A stretch of 64,000 nt of DNA, taken from positions 1-64,000 of the forward strand of contig DAIDHS010000009.1 of assembly GCA_027451985.1 (NCBI GenBank), given 5' to 3'. The notes beneath the pieces were generated by a model. The model had not been told where the DNA came from. It was given only the letters and a program-made list of their open reading frames with translations, and made no database searches. Below are positions 49,368-59,740 of this stretch, in pieces (position 1 is the stretch's first letter; each line of letters starts with the position of its first letter). Source of the DNA: Elusimicrobiota bacterium. Lineage in GTDB: Bacteria; Elusimicrobiota; Elusimicrobia; UBA1565; UBA9628. A program made the position numbers and the translations under genes.

Positions 49368-50738
49368 ATGGATACAACCCACAGGCTCATCCCCGAACAT
49401 CCCTACGAATCTTACGACGAATACCTGAAGCAGTACGGCGGCAAGTCCCCCGTCTTGAAGGCCCGGCAGGCCGGGCCGGACACGGTCATCAAGGAAGTCA
49501 AGGACGCGGGCCTGCGCGGCCGCGGCGGCGCAGGCTTTCCCACCGCCATCAAGTGGACCACCACCAAGAACCACCCCTGCCCCACGCGCTACGTGGTGTG
49601 CAACGCCTCCGAGGGCGAGCCGGGCACCTATAAGGACCGCTTTCTCATCCAGAAAAACCCCTACGCCACCATCGAGGGCATGCTCATCGCCGCCCACGTG
49701 GTCAGCGCCAAGGGCCTCTACATCGCCATCAAGGGCGTCTACAAGCGCGAAATCGCGCGGCTGGAAAAGGCGCTTGAGGAAGTGCGCGCCAAGGGGCTTT
49801 TGGACGGCGTTCCTTTCACCATCATCCACGGGCCGGACTCCTACCTCTACGGCGAGGAAAAGGCTTTGCTGGAAGTCGTCGAGGGCAACGAGCCCATGCC
49901 GCGCGAGGCGCACTACCCCCCCTTCGAGAAGGGCCTCTTCGCGAGCATCGAGTCGCCCAATCCCGCGTTGGTCAACAACGCGGAGTCCTACGCGCGCGTG
50001 CCTAGCATCATCCACCACGGCGCGGCGTCGTTTCGCGCCATCGGCAGCCCGGATACCGCGGGCTATCTGATTTTCACCCTCTGCGGCGACGTGGCCAAAC
50101 CCGGTCTCTACGAGGTTGAGGCGGGCATCACGCTGCGGGATCTCTTGAACAAATACGGCGGCGGGCCCAAGCCCGGCCGCAAGTTCAAGGCCGAGATTTC
50201 AGGCGTGGCCTCGGGCGTGGTGCCGGAATCGAAGTTCGACACCCCTGCCGACTTCGGCTCCTTGGCCAAGGCCGGCGGCGGCTTGGGATCAGCGGGATTT
50301 ATCGTGATGGACGACTCCGTCAACATCCCGCGCGTGGCCCAGACCCTGACCCACTTTCTCTACGTCGAGTCCTGCCACCAGTGCGGCTCCTGCAAGAGCG
50401 GACTGCGCGAAGCTTCCTTGGCCCTAAACGAATTCTGCGAAGGCCGCACCGGGAAGTCTGACCCCATCGAGCGGGCCCTGGCGGCCGTGATGGGCGGCTC
50501 GCAGACCACGCGCTGCTACCTGCCCGTGGAAGGCGGCTTGATGCTGCCCAGCCTCATCAAGAATTTCCCGGAGGAGTTCAAGGATCAGGCCGCGGCCGTG
50601 GCGGCGCCCATGTTCGCCACGCCCAAGATCAAGGACTACGATGAGGCCAAGCACGTCATCACCTACGACGCGCATTACTCCGAGAAGCAGCCAGACTGGA
50701 CCTACGCCGCCCCCGGCGAGACGGTCCTCATCCGGTAG
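49368..50738 (+). CDS. stand-alone NuoF-like (51-kDa) flavo-iron-sulfur protein
   Basis: The 456-residue homologue of complex I NuoF / hydrogenase HoxF has the FMN site GLRGRGGAGFPTAIKW, NAD-site CNASEGEPGTYKDR, YGEEKALLEVVEG (canonical proteins have CGEETALL), and the 4Fe-4S motif SCHQCGSCKSG with a later Cys in TTRCYLP. It would pass electrons between NAD(P)H and an unseen partner. No NuoE or NuoG gene adjoins it, and Y replaces the usual C of CGEE. Its C-terminus carries an unfamiliar extension (DAHYSEKQPDWTYAAPG). It follows the NarL-type regulator by 15 bp. Confidence 0.85.
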   Translation: MDTTHRLIPEHPYESYDEYLKQYGGKSPVLKARQAGPDTVIKEVKDAGLRGRGGAGFPTAIKWTTTKNHPCPTRYVVCNASEGEPGTYKDRFLIQKNPYATIEGMLIAAHVVSAKGLYIAIKGVYKREIARLEKALEEVRAKGLLDGVPFTIIHGPDSYLYGEEKALLEVVEGNEPMPREAHYPPFEKGLFASIESPNPALVNNAESYARVPSIIHHGAASFRAIGSPDTAGYLIFTLCGDVAKPGLYEVEAGITLRDLLNKYGGGPKPGRKFKAEISGVASGVVPESKFDTPADFGSLAKAGGGLGSAGFIVMDDSVNIPRVAQTLTHFLYVESCHQCGSCKSGLREASLALNEFCEGRTGKSDPIERALAAVMGGSQTTRCYLPVEGGLMLPSLIKNFPEEFKDQAAAVAAPMFATPKIKDYDEAKHVITYDAHYSEKQPDWTYAAPGETVLIR

Positions 50739-50776: not shown

Positions 50777-51439
50777 ATGGCGAGTCATTCAACTAAAATT
50801 ATAGAGCGCCCCCTGATTCGCGTCGGACGCGGCCGTATTGAGATCACGGCGTCGAGTGATGACCTGGAAAGGGCGCGTCAAAGTTATCTGGATCGCCACT
50901 TTATCGCTTTACCTGGCTTGCTTGAAATTGGAACAATAAACTGGATTCTTGATCGTCTGGCCACTGCCGCATTCGAGCCGACTGACGATGACCACCGCTA
51001 TCTCAGTGGTCTACAGCCTGTTGATCGCTCCATCAACTCCGCTCTTTCGTTCCTTTTTAACGATCCGCAAATTCTCTCATTCGTCCGTTTGGTGACGAAC
51101 TGCGGACCGATAGACGGCTTCGGCGGCCGTGTGCTCAGATTTGAGCCTGGCGGCGAGCATTATGTGCGCTGGCACGATGACTCTGAGACTGGGCCGCACC
51201 GTGTAATGACGCTACGGATCAATTTATCGAGGCGGCCGTTTCGAGGCGGCGTCCTTCAATTCCGCCGGGACCGCGGCGAGCCTGTGCTGTCGGAATACGA
51301 CGATAAAACCTGCGGCAATGCCGTGCTGTTTCGGGCCAGCCAGAGCCTCCACCGGAATACTCCAATCCTGGGAGGCGCTGCCAAGACGACCTTTACGGGT
51401 TGGTTTTACCGCGGCAATCCAGTGGACAAGGCGGGATGA
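50777..51439 (+). CDS. 2-oxoglutarate/Fe(II)-dependent oxygenase
   Basis: About 220 residues with the jelly-roll facial triad His133-x-Asp135 (VRWHDDSET) and distal His192 (SQSLHRNTP), with Arg193 or a nearby basic residue for 2OG. FRGGVLQFRRD and GNAVLFRAS are the conserved strands. These enzymes hydroxylate or desaturate small molecules, sugars or peptides. The ATG at 50777 is used; an in-frame TTG at 50741 adds 12 residues. Base composition falls here, marking the left edge of the low-GC cluster. Its end overlaps the convergent radical SAM gene by 34 bp. Confidence 0.8.
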   Translation: MASHSTKIIERPLIRVGRGRIEITASSDDLERARQSYLDRHFIALPGLLEIGTINWILDRLATAAFEPTDDDHRYLSGLQPVDRSINSALSFLFNDPQILSFVRLVTNCGPIDGFGGRVLRFEPGGEHYVRWHDDSETGPHRVMTLRINLSRRPFRGGVLQFRRDRGEPVLSEYDDKTCGNAVLFRASQSLHRNTPILGGAAKTTFTGWFYRGNPVDKAG

Positions 51440-52998
51440 GCTTCCTCTCTGCTCCTAAAATACCTTAGGGCGTAAACAACGGCTGCTTGTAGAGGGCGAT
51501 TTTTAATCAGTAAGGCAGTTATTTTTTCCAAAGCTGTTTCGTTTTCGATTGCGCTGAGGTCATCGATGCCCAAGGCGGCGGAGACGCCCGTTGTTAATTC
51601 GATAAATTCAATGAGTTCCAGCAGAATATCGACGCGCCGCCGCTCTTGCGGCCATGTCGGCTGATGAGTTCTTTCCCAGAGATCAGAGAACGGGCCGGAA
51701 AAGGCAGGGAAGCCACTTAACAGCCATTGATAGAATGCCAGCCTATTTAGCAAGTTTAGATCCTCAGCGCTGAGGGTGTCGGTTTTAAGGACCCGATACG
51801 GCGGTTTCTGCTGGTAGTGCACGCCGTATTGTTGCGCCAAACCTCCTAGTTCGGCTCCGGGCAGGACTAAGGCTCTATAATGAATCACCCCCTGAGGCTG
51901 AACCTGCAACAAGCTCCATTCGATTGATGCCGTGGCTGATTTCCAATCTTGTCCAGGCAGGCCGTAAATCAATTGGATAAAAAAAGGAAGGCTCGGAGCT
52001 TTCTCCTTGAGGTACTGCAAATTGGCTTCGACTTTTTCCCGATTAAATACACGACCGATAATTTTTAGTACGGTAGGATCCGTGGTTTGTACGCCAAGGG
52101 CGAGATTGAACTTCTTGGGATCCTGAGCAAGGGCGTTTACGATTGACTTGTTTAAGAAAGCAGGATTAGTGTTGAGGCCCAGACAGCAATCCGTGCCTTG
52201 GGAGGCGGCTAGGAACAAATTGATGATTTCCAGTCCGCGCCGCTGATTCATAAAGATATCGGCATCGCACATGGTTATTCCCGAAACTCGCGGTGCCAAG
52301 TCCCTGAATTCTCTATCGAGCTTTTCCAGAGGAACATAGCGCATCTTAGTCAGGCCCCAGTCGCAGAACTTGCAGCCAAAAGAACATCCTCGGGAAGACT
52401 CAAGGAGCGCCAGATCAGATTCCGGGACCATGTCTGCGCCCATAACAGATGAAGGAGAGGTCGCCAGATCAATAAATGCTCCGGGCTTTGTCGTTTTTAT
52501 GCGAGCATCGAGGCCGTGCCACGCCAGGCCGGGAATGTGATCTAGACTCGGCTCGGCAAAAATTAAATGCCTTAGAAGCTGGCGAAAAGTCTCCTCACCT
52601 TCATCGCTGATTGCCGCATAGTCCGCTTCTGGGTACGAGAGAAGCGCATTCGCCCCACGCCCAGAAATCTCCGGGCCGCCGAAAACGATTTTTACCTCCG
52701 GACAAAGTTCCTTGATTCGCCGCGCCATGCGGCATGCATGTGTAATCCCCCAGACGTAGCACGAGAACCCAAGCAGGTCGGGCTTTAGCGAGACGATCTG
52801 AGTCAAGCAGGTTTCCCATGCCTCCTCATTCAAAAGGGGCCGAATGACGCTGAAACGGACACGGCCGGCCAGTTCAGTATCGGCGAGCGCATAATTAATC
52901 AATACGGCAGCGGTAATCGACTGCAGACGGCGCTGCGGTCGGAATTCAACTAATGTCACGGAGAGCGCCGCCAGGGACGGCTCAGCCCCGTTTTTCAT
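51406..52998 (-). CDS. B12-binding-domain radical SAM enzyme
   Basis: The 530-residue protein has an N-terminal Rossmann-like cobalamin-binding-type domain (LKPDLLGFSCYVWGITHA, VKIVFGGPEISG, about 65-145) and a radical SAM barrel with Cys205, Cys209 and Cys212 (SSRGCSFGCKFCDWG). NLALGVQTTDPTVLKIIGR and IQLIYGLPGQDW are typical of this class. The DxHxxG cobalamin-ligand motif is not seen, so cobalamin may bind base-off without His or not at all. Such enzymes methylate unactivated carbons or rearrange rings. It starts 2 nt after the upstream GT4 gene. Confidence 0.88.
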   Translation of the reverse strand: MKNGAEPSLAALSVTLVEFRPQRRLQSITAAVLINYALADTELAGRVRFSVIRPLLNEEAWETCLTQIVSLKPDLLGFSCYVWGITHACRMARRIKELCPEVKIVFGGPEISGRGANALLSYPEADYAAISDEGEETFRQLLRHLIFAEPSLDHIPGLAWHGLDARIKTTKPGAFIDLATSPSSVMGADMVPESDLALLESSRGCSFGCKFCDWGLTKMRYVPLEKLDREFRDLAPRVSGITMCDADIFMNQRRGLEIINLFLAASQGTDCCLGLNTNPAFLNKSIVNALAQDPKKFNLALGVQTTDPTVLKIIGRVFNREKVEANLQYLKEKAPSLPFFIQLIYGLPGQDWKSATASIEWSLLQVQPQGVIHYRALVLPGAELGGLAQQYGVHYQQKPPYRVLKTDTLSAEDLNLLNRLAFYQWLLSGFPAFSGPFSDLWERTHQPTWPQERRRVDILLELIEFIELTTGVSAALGIDDLSAIENETALEKITALLIKNRPLQAAVVYALRYFRSREEAHPALSTGLPR

Positions 52999-53000
52999 TA

Positions 53001-54059
53001 TTATGCGCGGCCTTTTACGGAAGGCCCGTATTCGCCGCATTCGTTGGGCATCAGCGCGAGGTAGCGTCGTGCGATGGTGTCCCAATGATACTTGCGCGCC
53101 TCGCGGATTGCCCCGGCCTCAAGATCTCTGCGGCGTTGCGGACTGTCCAAAAGTTTACGCATCCCGGAGGCAAGTTTTTTCGCGTCACCCGCGGGAACAA
53201 GCAAGCCCGTGCGGCCTTCGACGACGGTTTCTTGTGGCCCGCCGCTTCTGGTCGCGACGACGGCCTTCCCGGCACCCATGGCCTCGATTAGGGCCATCCC
53301 AAACGATTCGTAAATGGCTGGATGCACCACAAAGAGGCTCCGCTCGAATTCGGACCATAATCGTCTGCGAGAGAGCTTCCCCAGCACTTTTACGCTGTCC
53401 AACATGCCCATGTCAAGCACCTTGCGGAGCACGCGTCTGTCGGGCGGGCAAGGATCTGGCCCTGCAATTCTCAACGTCGCGTCGCGGCGTCCGCCTAGTC
53501 GCTTCCATGCATCAAGAAGCACGTTTATCCCCTTGGCTGGAGAGTTCCTTGCCACGCATAGCACGGCGGGGCCGCCACGCCGTGTCTTAAGATGCAGCGC
53601 TTTTTCCAAAGCGTAGCCATCCGGCACAATGGCGATTCTCCCTGCTAGAGCGGGCATATCTTTCTCCATCTGCTTGGCGCAAAAAAACGAAAGCGCCGTC
53701 ACTTGACGCACACTACTGAGCCATTCGGAAAGCAGCGCCAACTCCGCGCGATCAGGACGGCGGCCCCAGGGGTCGCCGTAGCTCTGAAACGTAACCATGG
53801 CGAACTTTTGTTTGCGCCGCTGCGTGCTCCAGAAATCTATGGAAGAGTCTTCCAGGTGGCCGTAGAAATGATGGAAATGGACGGCATCCGCTCCCTTTAG
53901 GATCGCGGTCAAGACGCGGCGCCGGACGGACCGGGAGCGTCCCATTGCCGCAGTATGGACGTCGTGCCCGAGACGTCGGTAGGCAGCGCCGAGACCACGA
54001 AGCACAGCTTCTGCAGTTGGATTCGTGTACGGCAAACCGGCAATTAGCGCAATCCGCAT
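53001..54059 (-). CDS. GT4-family glycosyltransferase
   Basis: The 352-residue GT-B enzyme has an N-terminal acceptor domain (LIAGLPYTNPTAEAVLRGLG) and a C-terminal nucleotide-sugar domain with the E-x7-E motif (HPAIYESFGMALIEAMGAGKAVVATRSGG). VLCVARNSPAKGINVLLDAW is the usual start of that domain. It is a retaining transferase; donor and acceptor are unknown. It lies 12 bp after the GT2 gene and 2 nt before the radical SAM gene, so it is in the minus-strand operon 56815-51406. Confidence 0.9.
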   Translation of the reverse strand: MRIALIAGLPYTNPTAEAVLRGLGAAYRRLGHDVHTAAMGRSRSVRRRVLTAILKGADAVHFHHFYGHLEDSSIDFWSTQRRKQKFAMVTFQSYGDPWGRRPDRAELALLSEWLSSVRQVTALSFFCAKQMEKDMPALAGRIAIVPDGYALEKALHLKTRRGGPAVLCVARNSPAKGINVLLDAWKRLGGRRDATLRIAGPDPCPPDRRVLRKVLDMGMLDSVKVLGKLSRRRLWSEFERSLFVVHPAIYESFGMALIEAMGAGKAVVATRSGGPQETVVEGRTGLLVPAGDAKKLASGMRKLLDSPQRRRDLEAGAIREARKYHWDTIARRYLALMPNECGEYGPSVKGRA

Positions 54060-54071
54060 CGCAAGATGGGT

Positions 54072-54920
54072 TTAATTAAGAGTGGTATAAGGTGAGATGC
54101 CTTTGGATGGGAGTTCGCGCTCTATCATGCTCCAATTGGTTGCGTGTTTAAATTGAAAGTAGGCCCGATCGATCAGTATTTCTTTATAGCGCCTATCTCT
54201 GCGAAAAATAACGGGAATGCGGCAGCCGTTTAATGCCGCTTGATTCGACAGCTCCGTTAACTGCGCCGAAGGATGGCGCGTATAGAGCCCCAGCGGCTCA
54301 TCGATCCGGACGAATCCTCGCGCTCCGTAAGTCAGCGTCATCCGGGCATAGAGGTCAACATCCACGCCCTCCCATTTAAGATGAGGATCAAATCCACCCA
54401 AATGGGAAAACACCTCACGTCGGAAAACGTTGAAGGAGAGATGCCAGCCCCAGTAGAAACGGGAACCGGAGCTTCGACGCGGATAAAGCGCGACTTCTGG
54501 ATCAAAGACAACCGCGTCTCGCCAATGGTAGCGATGGACGATCTCCCCCTCTTCGGTCGCGATCCACCATGCTGAGGAGACGCTTTTGATGTCCCGTGAA
54601 CGGAAGGCGGCGAGCATCGTCTCAAGATACTCCGGCGCCCAATAATCGTCCGATTCCAGAAAGGCAATGAAGCGTCCGCGGGCAAGAGCGAGCCCAGCAT
54701 TCATAAGTGTGGCAACACCGGGATTTCCTCGCACGGAGACTGAGCGCACGGGCAATCTCAGCAGATTCAGGTAAGAAAGTGTGCCGTCATGCCCGGCATC
54801 GGCAACGATGATTTCCAAATTCTTGAACGTTTGCCGGAAAACGCCCGCCAACGCACGTTTGAACATCGGTAATCGGTTATATGTAGTAATAATGACGCTG
54901 ACTTCCGGACGTTCATTCAT
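54072..54920 (-). CDS. GT2-family glycosyltransferase
   Basis: The 282-residue GT-A enzyme has VSVIITTYNRLPMFKRAL, EIIVADAGHDG, the metal-binding FLESDDYWAPEYL (DxD-like SDD) and KWEGVDVDLYARM, the ED-type catalytic segment. It is an inverting transferase. The ATG at 54920 is eight bases inside the end of the PIG-L gene; the frame is open further upstream but that part has no family features. Donor sugar is unknown. Confidence 0.88.
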   Translation of the reverse strand: MNERPEVSVIITTYNRLPMFKRALAGVFRQTFKNLEIIVADAGHDGTLSYLNLLRLPVRSVSVRGNPGVATLMNAGLALARGRFIAFLESDDYWAPEYLETMLAAFRSRDIKSVSSAWWIATEEGEIVHRYHWRDAVVFDPEVALYPRRSSGSRFYWGWHLSFNVFRREVFSHLGGFDPHLKWEGVDVDLYARMTLTYGARGFVRIDEPLGLYTRHPSAQLTELSNQAALNGCRIPVIFRRDRRYKEILIDRAYFQFKHATNWSMIERELPSKGISPYTTLN

Positions 54921-55743
54921 GGCGGGGGAGCGGCTTGAAGAATGCCGCGTGGAACGGGCCTTGTCGAAATGCCTCCGGAGAGCATGGTATAAAGCAAAAT
55001 TCTTTTTCTGAATCGATCCCGCGCTTGAGCCAGGATTTGATGTTCTGGCTGACATAGGCGCTAAGTATCTTTTCCTTGCGCTTCCGATATGGAGTGATAT
55101 CAACGAAGACGTTCGGCTGGGCAGGCGCCGCCAGGAAAAGCTCATCAACGGCCCATGGTTGGAGATTCTGGCGCAGAGCGTAATTGGGCAGCGCCGAACC
55201 GCAATAGATGGCATCCAGGGCTGCCTCCCCAACGGCCCTGTGATCGGGATGGTGGATCGCGCCAAAAGGCCGGTGGAACCTTGAATAAGCGCGGCCCTGC
55301 AGGTAAAAAAGCGTGGGGTCGTAAGTGAAAACGGCGTTGGGTCTGAGTGTGCGGATATGCTGGACGAATTGCTCCCTGAGCCGCGGCTTACGCGCTTGCA
55401 GCCCGCCGTCGGGATGGTTTAGGAAATAGACGCCATGGACGCCAGCCAGTCGAGCGGCGGCGCGCTGTTCACTCTTGCGAATGGCCCCCAAGGCACGCAT
55501 CGGGACTCGTGGCAAAGTTGTTCCAAGGGCACCATCCGTGGCAACGACGATGTATACCTTTTCGCCCTCATCAATTAGTCGCAGCATGGTTCCAGCAAAG
55601 CATACTTCGGCGTCATCCGGATGCGCGATCAGGATCAGGTTAACGCGGGGCCTAGATCCCCATAGAGAGCGCGCGGACTTTTCCTTTGTTTCTCGCTCAC
55701 GCGCTGCCAAGAAGCATCTCCCGATACAGCGCTCTATAGGCAT
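54913..55743 (-). CDS. PIG-L/LmbE-family deacetylase
   Basis: A 276-residue zinc N-deacetylase of the family that includes MshB and BshB. Zinc ligands and base are in AHPDDAE (His41, Asp43/Asp44) and HHPDHRAVG (His164, His165, His168). The family usually removes acetyl from GlcNAc on an acceptor. The ATG at 55743 lies 47 bp inside the preceding GT4 gene, which suggests tight coupling of glycosyl transfer and deacetylation. The first 33 residues are extra relative to the family core, and a later start is possible. Confidence 0.9.
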   Translation of the reverse strand: MPIERCIGRCFLAARERETKEKSARSLWGSRPRVNLILIAHPDDAEVCFAGTMLRLIDEGEKVYIVVATDGALGTTLPRVPMRALGAIRKSEQRAAARLAGVHGVYFLNHPDGGLQARKPRLREQFVQHIRTLRPNAVFTYDPTLFYLQGRAYSRFHRPFGAIHHPDHRAVGEAALDAIYCGSALPNYALRQNLQPWAVDELFLAAPAQPNVFVDITPYRKRKEKILSAYVSQNIKSWLKRGIDSEKEFCFIPCSPEAFRQGPFHAAFFKPLPRHE

Positions 55744-56815
55744 GGAGGGGCGTGGACCATGGAAATTTTGACGCCGTCTTCAATCCCTCGCGTCCGAGGC
55801 AGAGGCGAAGGCGTTCGTCGCCTGCCAAGCGCTCAATGGCGTCTTTGAGCGCGTCAATATTTTCGGGCTCAAAGAGCAGTCCGTTATCGCCGTTAGATAG
55901 ATATTCAGGGATCCCGCCCACTCGTGGAGCGGCCACGGCCTTGCCGCAAGCCATCGCTTCGAGCAAGGCTATCCCGAAAGATTCTTCGCGGGAAGCGGAG
56001 ACGAAGAAGAGACATCGTTTCATGAGCGCTATGACGATGTTATGAGGGCAATTCGGAAGCAGGATGACGGCGCTTTCAAGCTTGAGCGCGGCTACCAGTC
56101 GGGCCAGTTGTCCTTTCGGTTCGTCTTGACCGCATAGGACGATCGGGATTTTTAAGCGGCCTTCTTGCCAAAGGTCAAAGATGGCCAGCAATAGCATGTC
56201 TCCGCCTTTGACAGAGCAAAAGATCCCGGCCGAGAGAATAAACTTTTCCGGTAACCCTGCGGGCAGGAGGCCGTCGTCCTCGTCATTGATTTGTACGCCG
56301 TTAGGCACGACCTTGATTTTGCCGTCAATTGATGGTAACAGCTCCCCTATATCTCCCTTGAGCGCGCGTGAGACAGCCGTGATCTTGAAGGCTCCGCGCA
56401 ATAACCGGCGAACAACGTCTGGCTCATACAATCCCTGGCTCCTCAGCCGGTCCCGATTAAAGGCATGAAAAGTGAGGGCGTAGGGCAGTCGCGGGGCAAT
56501 GCGGCGATAAAGATCGAAGCCCCAGTGGTCAACCCCGCTCCAATGAATGTGCGCCAGTCGGACGCCACATCTTCGAAATATCCAAGCCAGCTCGATGGCC
56601 GAGACCCATCGTCCGAGCGGCGTGCCTCTCGGAAGGCCGATGGTGTATCGCGGAGTTCCATTCCAAAAGTCGCGGGACAGCTGGCTCCAGCACATACGAC
56701 GTCGCAGCCACAATCTCGGGGAGTCCGTATTGCACGACTTGAAGAGGGCGTTTCTGATGGCGGCGGTACTTCCATGAGTTGCCGCGTCCTGATCATTGAG
56801 AAAGACGGCAATCAT
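55697..56815 (-). CDS. GT4-family glycosyltransferase
   Basis: The 372-residue GT-B enzyme begins MIAVFLNDQDAATHG and has WSGVDHWGFDLYRRIA in the acceptor domain. Its donor domain has KFILSAGIFCSVKGGDMLL, VVLCGQDEP-like IVLCGQDEPKGQ, and the E-x7-E motif in SASREESFGIALLEAMACGKAVAAPRVGG. It is first in the minus-strand operon GT4 / PIG-L / GT2 / GT4 / radical SAM. The GT4-then-deacetylase order is that of mycothiol, bacillithiol and amino-sugar antibiotic pathways, but the later genes differ. Composition is AT-rich for this genome. Confidence 0.9.
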   Translation of the reverse strand: MIAVFLNDQDAATHGSTAAIRNALFKSCNTDSPRLWLRRRMCWSQLSRDFWNGTPRYTIGLPRGTPLGRWVSAIELAWIFRRCGVRLAHIHWSGVDHWGFDLYRRIAPRLPYALTFHAFNRDRLRSQGLYEPDVVRRLLRGAFKITAVSRALKGDIGELLPSIDGKIKVVPNGVQINDEDDGLLPAGLPEKFILSAGIFCSVKGGDMLLLAIFDLWQEGRLKIPIVLCGQDEPKGQLARLVAALKLESAVILLPNCPHNIVIALMKRCLFFVSASREESFGIALLEAMACGKAVAAPRVGGIPEYLSNGDNGLLFEPENIDALKDAIERLAGDERLRLCLGREGLKTASKFPWSTPLHAYRALYREMLLGSA

Positions 56816-57024
56816 GCCGCAGGGAGGAACTTACGATAAAGTGGTCGCGAATGCGACATTCGACACGGAAAGGCTCCCTACCATTACAAGGATAGGAGCG
56901 ACGTATTTTTTCTTTTTTGGTCCTGGGCGTTTGGATTTGGCAGAACCATCTTTTTCGGCCATTTTTATGAGGGTACTACATTTAGCTCACTCCATGCAAC
57001 CACTTCCTACCCCACGGGAATAAC

Positions 57025-58497
57025 TTAATTATTGAAAGAGAAGTAGGCATGTCTCGAGACTTTAGTCAGTGTTTTGCGACCGTCGCCCTCCGCTACAAAG
57101 CCGAGGCGGTTCATGGTCTCCAGAAGTAAGCGGTGGCGCTCCATGCGGATTTCAATCGTGTTAGAACCGTCTACGCTTGACCACAGACGCGGTTCGGCGG
57201 GATCAAGGCGTATGCCGTATTCGATTCGATTGACGTATAAGTGCGAGCCTTTTAGAACCGCACACATGGAAGGATCGACAATATCAATAAAATCAACGTT
57301 TTTCTCAAGGAACGCGATAGTTTGCAGGAAATCTTTTTCCGTTTCACCAGGATAGCCGACCATGAGGAACAACTGCACCCTGATACCGGCCTTGTTTGTG
57401 TCTTGGATGATCCTCTCGGCCTCTGGAACTCGAAAGTTTTTACGCATCAGATCCACAACCTTCTGGCTTGCGCTCTCGAAGCCGTAGGCCAGCGTCTGGC
57501 AGCCGCCACGTCTCATTTTTCTCAGAAGATCCGCGGTCATCGTCGGGTGAAGAATTGCCATGCCGCCCCAGCCGAAATCCAGCGAGCTTCTCTTGGTTGC
57601 CATCTCCAGTCGGAACGGGAGCAGAAGTTCCGAAAGCCGCGAAATGAGCCGGACGTCTCCATTAATCAATGAATCCATGAACCGTATGAAGTATCGGTCC
57701 GGGTAGTGCCTGCGCTGATGCCGAATCTCGGAGAGGATGCGTTCCGCACTCATTCTGCGGTATGTTTTTTTCTGTACGATATCTGTGCAAAAAGAGCATC
57801 TGCGCACGCATCCTCGGCTTGAGACCAAAGAAAGTGATGCTTGGTCGTAGGCGTCCATCTCGAAATCGCCGAAGTCCATAAAAGGGAGACTGTCCAGATC
57901 GGCAACTTCACAAGGATCGCCGCAGTCAATGACGACCCCATTTTCCTTGACCAGAAAACCATGGGTCTTCGGCATCTTCTTGCTGCGGATATCGAACGCC
58001 AGTGCGAATTCCACGAAAGACTTGTCAGCCTCTGCCATGGCGACGGCATCCACGCAAGACTCTTGGATTAACTCAAAGGCCTTGGTTTCTCTGAGGCACT
58101 GTGGGCCACCAAAAATGATCGTGGTTTTGGGAGAAAGCTCCTTGATGCGCCGAGCCAGCTTTAGGCTGCATTCTTCAGTAGAAATTTGGACATGAAAGCC
58201 GATGATGTCGGGAGCCTGCGCGAGGATTTCAGCGGCCTCCATCGATAGCAAAGATTCCATCTGCTCAGGAAACGGCTCGGCCGCGCCAAGCATATCCTCG
58301 GCATCTGAGATTAAATATTCCTTCCAAGCAAGTCCTTTTGCCTTGAAGCCGCGCCGGAGCATCAGGCTCGAATCTCGGATATTTGTTTCTATCCCGGCTG
58401 TGCTCAGATGCGCTTTGAGAAGAGCCAAGCCGTTGGATGGAGAAAGCCGGGAAAAAACCGGCGCCTGGACAAGCATTATCCTGGGAAAACTCCGCAT
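57025..58497 (-). CDS. B12-binding-domain radical SAM enzyme
   Basis: The 490-residue protein has an N-terminal cobalamin-binding-type domain (MLVQAPVFSRLSPSNGLALL..., APDIIGFHVQISTEEC, TIIFGGPQC) and a radical SAM domain with Cys230, Cys234 and Cys237 (SSRGCVRRCSFCTD). IRFMDSLINGD, GFESASQKVVDLMRK and FLMVGYPGETEKDFL follow the class pattern. No DxHxxG is visible. The ATG at 58497 was taken because the domain starts there; other codons lie upstream. It is separated by 209 bp from the GT4 operon (56816-57024, which holds nothing I can name). Confidence 0.87.
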   Translation of the reverse strand: MRSFPRIMLVQAPVFSRLSPSNGLALLKAHLSTAGIETNIRDSSLMLRRGFKAKGLAWKEYLISDAEDMLGAAEPFPEQMESLLSMEAAEILAQAPDIIGFHVQISTEECSLKLARRIKELSPKTTIIFGGPQCLRETKAFELIQESCVDAVAMAEADKSFVEFALAFDIRSKKMPKTHGFLVKENGVVIDCGDPCEVADLDSLPFMDFGDFEMDAYDQASLSLVSSRGCVRRCSFCTDIVQKKTYRRMSAERILSEIRHQRRHYPDRYFIRFMDSLINGDVRLISRLSELLLPFRLEMATKRSSLDFGWGGMAILHPTMTADLLRKMRRGGCQTLAYGFESASQKVVDLMRKNFRVPEAERIIQDTNKAGIRVQLFLMVGYPGETEKDFLQTIAFLEKNVDFIDIVDPSMCAVLKGSHLYVNRIEYGIRLDPAEPRLWSSVDGSNTIEIRMERHRLLLETMNRLGFVAEGDGRKTLTKVSRHAYFSFNN

Positions 58498-58715
58498 TGC
58501 TGTAGTTAACAAATTATCGCGAGGCGGGGCAATGAATCCATAAACTGAGGTGTTTTTGCTTGCCAATAGCTTTGAAATATAAACCACAAAAAGCGAAGAT
58601 ATTCTTCAGCAAAACAATAAAAGCGCATAGCAATTGGACAGGCAAAAGCGAAGATGCGTCGGACTCCTGAAAAGAAATGGGCATAGTTGCTGAAATGGTA
58701 GCAAGAGGCGCTCGT

Positions 58716-58769
58716 GGTGAGAGTATGCCATCGCCACCGGTGGCCTGAGTTTTAAGGCAGACTCTCACC
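58716..58769. repeat. 54-bp structured inverted repeat before the methyltransferase gene
   Basis: Outer arms GGTGAGAGT (58716-58724) and ACTCTCACC (58761-58769) are perfect; after one mismatch they extend with TGCC/GGCA. Inside lies a perfect 12-bp palindrome GCCACCGGTGGC (58733-58744). The arms end 11 nt before the ATG at 58781. It could be an RNA leader structure, an operator or a small mobile repeat. The rest of the gap 58498-58780 holds nothing else recognisable. Confidence 0.6.
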
Positions 58770-58780
58770 ATGCCAAAACT

Positions 58781-59740
58781 ATGACAGCTGGCGCCCCTCT
58801 TTCCCGCAAAAGTCTATACAGAGCTGTCAGCAGCCTTTATCGCGATAAACAGCGACAGCTTCATGAGCAAATAGCCAAGCATCGGGAGGGACAAAGGGAG
58901 AGATTTGGAATATACCAATCGCGTTTTAAATCAACATACGAGGACATCAGACACTGTCACCTTGAAAAATTTCAAACGCCTTCCTGGAAAGCGCATATAG
59001 TTGCGTGGGAGAAAAAAATTGCTCCACCTCCTTTTGATTTCTTGGATCCGAAGAAGACCGTCCTTCGCGCAATGTTGGGATACCCCTCGCCGGACACGCT
59101 GCCCGGGTTCCTTTCCGAAGCGTTGCCGCCCGCCACAGCGGGAGAAATCCTAATGGAAGATCCCATCGGTCGTCCCCTGCTGACCCCCGCCTTCCTCTCA
59201 TCAAAAAATCTCATTCGTCTTGCCGCCGATCTGGTGTGGCTTTCGCAAAAAACCAACAGCGCACTAAGCGATATGCGCACCGTCATCGAATGGGGCGGCG
59301 GTTACGGCTGCATGGCTAAGATCGCCAGACGAATGAGCCCCGGCCGCTTGACCTATATTATCATTGATGTTCCGCTGATCAGCAGCCTCCAGTGGCTTTA
59401 TCTTTCAACGATCTTCGGAGAATCTGCGGTCAACCTATTCCACGATGGAACTGAGAGTATTCAGGAAGGAAAGTTTAACCTTATCCCCGTTTGTTTCGTA
59501 GAAAAATACTCCTTAAAGGCGGATCTTTTTATTTCAACTTTCGCGTTGAGCGAGAGCTCCGCTTACGCGCACGATTTTGTGGATAAAATGAACTTTTTCG
59601 GTGCCAAGCACATTTGGCTTGAATATCATGGCATGGTGTCCGTTTTCAGGGAGAGGTATCCAATCATTGAGTCGATGGCACTGAAGCACGGGCTAAAAAT
59701 AGAGAGCCCCAGGCGGTTTCAATTCTATGCTTACCGGTAA
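58781..59740 (+). CDS. putative sugar O-methyltransferase
   Basis: The 319-residue protein has a basic helical N-terminus (about 1-60) and a SAM-dependent methyltransferase domain whose motif I is TVIEWGGGYGCMAKIARRM, followed by LTYIIIDVPLISSLQWLYLS. This pattern is seen in putative sugar O-methyltransferases of polysaccharide and antibiotic clusters. It is divergent from the radical SAM gene and the last gene of the AT-rich block. A structured repeat lies directly upstream and no clear Shine-Dalgarno is seen. An inverted repeat GCACGCC/GGCGTGC (59753-59812) lies downstream. Confidence 0.75.
   Translation: MTAGAPLSRKSLYRAVSSLYRDKQRQLHEQIAKHREGQRERFGIYQSRFKSTYEDIRHCHLEKFQTPSWKAHIVAWEKKIAPPPFDFLDPKKTVLRAMLGYPSPDTLPGFLSEALPPATAGEILMEDPIGRPLLTPAFLSSKNLIRLAADLVWLSQKTNSALSDMRTVIEWGGGYGCMAKIARRMSPGRLTYIIIDVPLISSLQWLYLSTIFGESAVNLFHDGTESIQEGKFNLIPVCFVEKYSLKADLFISTFALSESSAYAHDFVDKMNFFGAKHIWLEYHGMVSVFRERYPIIESMALKHGLKIESPRRFQFYAYR

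Follow-up and report, generated by a model that had tools for sequence, protein, structure and literature searches.

Introduction

Linear polyphosphorylated peptides (LPPs), described in 2026, carry a leader motif of the form YxxPxVLxHQxIxFETxxS and are encoded with core genes for an SpI peptidase, a discrete RRE (recognition element of ribosomally synthesized and post-translationally modified peptides, RiPPs), an HprK-like kinase, a nucleoside triphosphate transferase and an MsbA-like transporter (PMC13381572). The YxxP portion is essential to RRE binding in the LPP family, and [Y/W]xxPx[L/V/I/F/A] is the motif bound by the discrete RREs of lasso peptides (PMC13381572). Here we analyze a 64,000-nucleotide stretch of an Elusimicrobiota bacterium (GenBank assembly GCA_027451985.1, contig DAIDHS010000009.1, positions 1 to 64,000; hereafter the window), which is contig C9 of a 2.4 Mb metagenome-assembled genome, and in it an AT-rich cluster of eight genes at 50777-59740. 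These are labelled A to H by position and encode a 2-oxoglutarate (2OG)-Fe(II) oxygenase (A), two cobalamin-type (B12-type) radical S-adenosylmethionine (SAM) proteins (B and G), two GT4 glycosyltransferases (C and F), a GT2 glycosyltransferase (D), a PIG-L family N-deacetylase (E) and a putative O-methyltransferase (H). In locus labels such as G000:C1, G stands for genome and C for contig; G000 is the genome of the window and G001 a sister species. Within the cluster we found a ninth gene that the first-pass annotation of this DNA had overlooked, a 43-codon open reading frame (ORF) at 56831-56962 on the minus strand, encoding the precursor candidate MAEKDGSAKSKRPGPKKKKYVAPILVMVGSLSVSNVAFATTLS. 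We consider it likely that this is a RiPP locus in which the 43-residue peptide is the precursor, and the missing scaffold, that is decorated with sugars and methylated.

The locus resembles the LPP systems in its RRE-type YxxPx leader with variable tails, in its glycosyltransferase surroundings, in precursors of 35-200 residues and in having no macrocyclase. It differs in its leader, YVAPILVMVGSLSV, which falls outside the definition of the LPP leader, and in that no LPP core gene is present among the eight, which instead include B12-radical SAM, PIG-L and 2OG enzymes. Lasso peptides are similar in that the leader reads YxxPxLxxxG; the peptides give weak, sub-cutoff matches to the lasso_cyano and DUF5972 models, and the two PqqD proteins of the group that were scanned have lasso PqqD models as their top matches, at sub-cutoff scores. 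A lasso peptide was rejected as an identity, as the eight genes include neither an asparagine-synthetase-like cyclase nor a transglutaminase-like B2 peptidase and the tail of the window peptide, approximately SVSNVAFATTLS, lacks an Asp or Glu residue for ring closure. Systems with enzymes of TIGR03975 (named 'RiPP maturation radical SAM C-methyltransferase') are represented by full members in four sister peptide loci, and G is a distant relative of that family; however, G itself scores below the cutoff, and the constant partner in the present peptide family is a glycosyltransferase. The locus lacks a defining feature of each of the LPP, lasso and TIGR03975 systems. We class it as an undescribed RiPP variant with glycosyltransferases as constant partners. 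The first-pass annotation recognized no described pathway with this gene set, and our literature search likewise returned no report of such a peptide family or of its enzyme combination, nothing that brings together a RiPP, a glycosyltransferase, a cobalamin radical SAM enzyme and a precursor peptide, and no paper tying Elusimicrobia to radical-SAM peptide maturation.

A conserved peptide family

The peptide ORF lies on the operon strand in the gap of ~210 bp between G and F, 62 bp from the former and 15 bp from the latter. A search for a missing scaffold gene had been proposed with the first-pass annotation, and this short gene inside the cluster is what such a search finds. Members of the family share a Lys-rich start and the motif K[KR]xYxxPxLxxxG[ST]L, followed by a variable tail, and the peptide can be likened to the leader peptides of RRE-dependent RiPPs. 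In the window the leader motif is KKKKYVAPILVMVGSL (YxxPxLxxxGSL; 56870-56917, minus strand). Across 16 peptides, P and G are invariant and Y and L are conserved in at least 90%. The family is new, with members at 27 places: the window and 26 other loci examined in the same genome and in related uncultured bacteria.

When the loci chosen for their enzymes were scanned with the motif, similar ORFs were found next to genes related to A, B, G and H. A profile built from six peptides gained five more, the last match having E=8.5e-5 against noise at 0.12; one of the five, in G007:C23, precedes the F homolog by ~15 bp, the same arrangement that the window shows. In a leave-one-out test of the 16 peptides, the 15-member profile in every case scored the true ORF above all other six-frame pieces from its locus, and for the window peptide the match had E=8.9e-10 with a runner-up at 0.73 (1329 six-frame pieces). 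Strong peptide matches in a search of the whole class (235 genomes) were confined to loci of this kind. G000:C1 and G007:C44 encode the same core, MSQKGLMATSIPG, with DNA that differs at 9 of 39 positions; every one of these substitutions is synonymous, which points to purifying selection on the peptide.

The tails of the family vary, comprising short Ser/Thr/Ala-rich ends such as that of the window, Tyr ends and fusions to Peptidase_S74. By analogy, one leader placed on different cargoes is typical RiPP precursor behavior.

A second subfamily has the form KPxLTKHGxLS and ends in Tyr (ALARSY, ALAHSY, ASFRTFY, AFQLLY, AFSLLY). It is found near the peptide matches of loci L229, L233, L279, L280, L281, L282, L283, L286, L287 and L288, mostly beside GT4 genes and sometimes together with a protein that resembles HprK at a score below cutoff, and modification of the C-terminal Tyr is possible. 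The Peptidase_S74 (endosialidase-chaperone) fusions number three, at 7566-7985 of L023 (G007:C105), 15293-15742 of L048 (G020:C137) and 8669-9115 of L230 (G015:C9); their S74 part opens with SSRTLKTDI or SSRMFKKNI directly after the same leader, and S74 autocleavage could release the front part of these proteins.

Linkage of the peptide to glycosyltransferases and radical SAM enzymes

The peptide family is conserved and tightly linked to GT4/GT2 and B12-radical-SAM genes and, in several relatives, to PqqD/RRE genes. This linkage was examined blind with 16 further peptide matches obtained in the whole-genome search, the neighbors of which were not known beforehand. At 13 of these blind loci a GT4 gene lies within 3 kb (within 112 bp at 11), and five of the 16 have a PqqD/RRE gene, and five a radical SAM gene, within the same distance. 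The GT4 frequency is far from chance, which would give ~6% within 3 kb by a rough estimate (~30 GT4 genes in 3 Mb); no random control position had such neighbors, in control stretches that were small (~150 kb). PqqD, which has the RRE fold, is separated from the peptide by 70 bp in G028:C129 and by 9 bp in G004:C149, and shares its cluster in G007:C80, G026 and G030. The whole architecture is found together in G007:C80, where a twitch-domain radical SAM protein, PqqD, GT4, the peptide, GT2 and a TIGR03975 enzyme are all present.

Two sister loci are found in the genome of the window, on contigs C1 (G, D, peptide, G, GT2, D, B) and C18 (GT4, peptide, radical SAM, A, methyltransferase), and further ones in G007 (C15, C23, C44, C76, C80 and C105), G020 (C52 and C137) and G001 (C254). 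Scattered, unrelated placement of the genes in relatives had been named beforehand as an outcome that would count against a functional cluster; the genes are indeed reshuffled between loci, yet they recur beside the same peptide family, which is the constant element. Several of them are rare, with E present in two of 147 class genomes, A in three and H in six. Within the class, homologs of A are found only in G000, G007 and G020; in G007:C23, G007:C76 and G000:C18 the same locus also encodes the peptide, and that of G020:C48 is cut by the contig end. The single other match to E at E<=1e-12 in the 147 genomes, in G007:C23, stands beside F and the peptide with the order peptide-F-E retained, and both E loci thus hold the peptide. 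D homologs lie next to the peptide at three loci (G000:C1, G007:C44 and G007:C76), all five loci with the nearest relatives of G contain it, and so does each locus of the three best H homologs (G020:C52, G020:C137 and G007:C105). A scan of GTDB with the B profile recovered no close relatives beyond this group; the radical SAM proteins matched there were distant, the best at about 27-30%.

With 481-585 bits against a cutoff of 282, the radical SAM enzymes of G000:C18 and of G007 C23, C80 and C105 belong fully to TIGR03975. The loci combine a short precursor that has a conserved leader and a variable core with linked enzymes that have RiPP precedent, TIGR03975 members in these four sister loci and the related non-members B and G in the window. 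A separate region, G000:C5:41791-60578 (L012 and L013), holds a large set of B12-type radical SAM paralogs of G and no peptide match, and is a different system.

Enzymes of the cluster

The eight genes and their families, as named in the first-pass annotation, were borne out by a Pfam scan and by curated family models. TokK and CysS are cobalamin radical SAM C-methyltransferases, and B (51406-52998, minus strand; PF04055 and PF02310) resembles both, with profile matches of E=1e-46 to TokK and 5e-41 to CysS. Its AlphaFold model (pLDDT 80) is closest to CysS (TMq 0.78); against the KedN5 family it scores 103 bits, well below the cutoff of 700, which places it outside that family. The TokK and CysS complexes of known structure contain pantetheinylated small molecules, whereas B is found in peptide/glycosyltransferase loci. 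G (57025-58497, minus strand) matches PF04055 with 63.3 bits and the B12-binding domain with 25.4 bits, below the cutoff of 32.1, and its model (pLDDT 83) is closest to TsrM, OxsB, CysS and MgmA, with AprD4 also matched. On the basis of this predicted fold, methyl transfer by G is likely but not certain.

The glycosyltransferases C (53001-54059; PF00534, 110.8 bits), D (54072-54920; PF00535, 77.9 bits) and F (55697-56815; PF00534, 108.7 bits) and the deacetylase E (54913-55743; PF02585, 100.2 bits) are all on the minus strand. GT4 and PIG-L genes are paired in the mycothiol, bacillithiol and aminoglycoside pathways, and the adjacent F and E are like BshA/BshB and MshA/MshB in this respect. The analogy suggests that an N-acetylated sugar may be added by F and then deacetylated by E, as in bacillithiol and mycothiol synthesis. 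E is nearest to BshB1, and the GT4/PIG-L comparison gave 81.9 bits for BshB1 and 75.0 bits for MshA; all of these matches are sub-cutoff, and no further gene of either pathway is present in the cluster. A (50777-51439, plus strand, 220 residues) matches PF13640 with 34.4 bits against a cutoff of 27. H (58781-59740, plus strand) scores 40.6 bits with the sugar O-methyltransferase family TIGR04371, just under the cutoff of 44, and by sequence is at best a near relative of that family. The catalytic motifs are intact, with CxxxCxxC in B and G, HPDDxE in E and EX7E in C and F. The first-pass annotation had proposed a tailoring set for glycosyl transfer, deacetylation, C-methylation, oxidation and methylation of an amino-sugar glycoside; the tailoring set stands, whereas the glycoside scaffold is not supported, the likely scaffold gene being the peptide gene inside the cluster.

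A proposed route to a glycosylated peptide

In the pathway that we favor, the leader would be presented to the enzymes by an RRE supplied in trans, for which the candidate is the sole PF05402 (PqqD) protein that profile search found in the genome, on contig C12 (G000:C12:42379-42579; L272 8364-8648). The GT4 enzyme F would move a sugar, probably N-acetylated, onto a side chain of the core, E would deacetylate it, and C and D would then lengthen the glycan. B and G may C-methylate the core or the sugars, A would probably hydroxylate and H probably methylate, in an order of steps that we put forward tentatively; removal of the leader and export would be carried out by functions outside the cluster, yielding a sugar-decorated, methylated peptide as the presumed product.

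Several points weigh against this proposal. The first eleven peptides came from loci that had been preselected by their enzymes, no curated precursor family was matched above cutoff by the peptides, and no clear Shine-Dalgarno sequence precedes the window peptide. G scores 136.5 bits with TIGR03975, for which the cutoff is 281.85, and is thus outside the family. There is no RRE, protease or exporter among the cluster genes, and profile comparison detected no RRE in B or G, such a hidden RRE being rejected at match probabilities of 0.3% and 0.2%, respectively. The PqqD gene of contig C12 adjoins genes that by eye resemble those of fatty-acid synthesis. The presence of PqqD is in itself weak evidence, and since PqqD is common (108 of 231 class genomes) we count only its co-location with the peptide. 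Close homologs of the C12 protein in four relatives are found in other settings.

Should this reading hold, it points to a RiPP family of uncultured bacteria in which the constant partners of the precursor are glycosyltransferases rather than cyclases or dehydratases, combined at the window locus with cobalamin C-methylases and a PIG-L deacetylase. It would make questions about RREs testable, such as whether one in-trans RRE serves several loci, and offer a source of unstudied enzymes for peptide glycosylation and C-methylation. Because the 43-codon gene goes uncalled, such loci can be mis-filed as polysaccharide clusters.

Alternative explanations

A possibility that we hold as appreciably less probable is a peptide-primed glycan, in which the RRE-type leader would hand the peptide to the GT4 and GT2 enzymes and an oligosaccharide would be built directly on it, in the manner of glycogenin. 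PIG-L would then free amino groups, and the B12-radical-SAM, 2OG and methyltransferase enzymes would diversify both peptide and sugars. If so, the pathway would yield a modular, genetically encoded glycopeptide, either exposed at the surface or secreted, and the swapping of the leader onto different tails, including S74 chaperone domains, would set its fate.

Unlikely, in our judgment, is an accessory surface-glycan module that decorates a capsule, exopolysaccharide or lipopolysaccharide on a lipid carrier, the peptide being an unrelated or regulatory small ORF. Loci of that type commonly contain three glycosyltransferases, a PIG-L protein and a methyltransferase, and in G028:C129 and G135:C59 an ATP-binding cassette exporter resembling a polysaccharide exporter stands beside the peptide. 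The first-pass annotation judged a standard O-antigen locus a poor fit, noting the absence of flippase, polymerase and polyprenyl transferase; the Pfam scan agrees, and an O-antigen or capsule locus was rejected because no flippase or exporter, polymerase or initiating transferase is present among the eight genes (the rest of the genome was not searched for these). A surface glycan would also leave unexplained the RRE-type leader peptide beside GT4 at many unlinked places and the TIGR03975 enzymes of the sister loci.

We give still less credence to a secreted or membrane peptide with a Sec signal-like sequence that would act as an exported scaffold for glycosylation, independently of an RRE or RiPP logic. 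The Lys-rich start, a partly hydrophobic stretch and an AxA-like site ahead of a short tail (VAFA-TTLS, VFA-SY) would suit it, as would the three members that run on into a Peptidase_S74 domain. However, this reading suits some members only: others, YVKPKLTKHGALSQTALARSY and YRKPKLTQHGSLEPEIRAFQLLY among them, carry charged residues along that stretch with Y, P and G still fixed, and PqqD lies beside five of the 16 blind loci.

Tailoring of a small amino-sugar glycoside on a non-peptide scaffold made elsewhere, as first proposed for this cluster, now seems improbable: the GT4/PIG-L pairing, with its sub-cutoff BshB1 and MshA scores, and the match of AprD4 to the models of B and G speak for it, but there is no scaffold gene, the likeness to AprD4 is at the fold level only, and the peptide, conserved with the cluster genes, fills the scaffold role. 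A chance gathering of unrelated genes in an AT-rich island, to which the low GC at third codon positions (GC3) and the sister species, with no matching DNA except short paralogous pieces, might point, is highly improbable given the operon-like spacing and is refuted by the recurrence of the same rare families together in other genera.

Gene layout and genomic surroundings

Genes B-C-D-E-F-peptide-G are closely packed in a single array on the minus strand, with -47 to +62 bp between neighbors; A and B are convergent, tail to tail, and H is divergent from G. The reading frame of B is open to 53085, that of D further upstream and that of G to 58587, and we take ATG codons at 52998, 54920 and 58497, respectively, as the likelier starts. 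The divergent gap between G and H contains an inverted repeat (window 58714-58770), GGTGAGAGT ... ACTCTCACC, a possible operator or terminator.

The lower GC content noted for the cluster in the first-pass annotation was confirmed, at 0.49-0.60 for its genes vs 0.61-0.68 in their neighbors, with GC3 of 0.55-0.64 vs 0.83-0.91 in most flanking genes. The cluster is thus an AT-richer island embedded within one contig between GC-rich flanks. The paralogous locus on contig C1 of the same genome likewise has low GC (0.50-0.58), and because the G007 versions are of ordinary composition (about 0.61-0.73), low GC is not an inherent property of these loci.

Downstream, outside the cluster, lies an efflux set that by eye is EmrB/EmrA/TolC-like, the DNA of which is 91% identical in the sister species G001. 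The assembly of that species is fragmented (440 contigs, 86% complete); its contig C229 begins inside emrB, and for the rest of 44.5-60.9 kb it gives only short paralogous DNA matches. On the upstream side lies a NuoF-like gene (49368-50738) with ordinary GC3, which we do not count in the cluster. It adjoins a response-regulator-like gene rather than standing in a complex I operon, no match in relatives exceeds 40% identity, and contig C17 carries a second NuoF-like gene.

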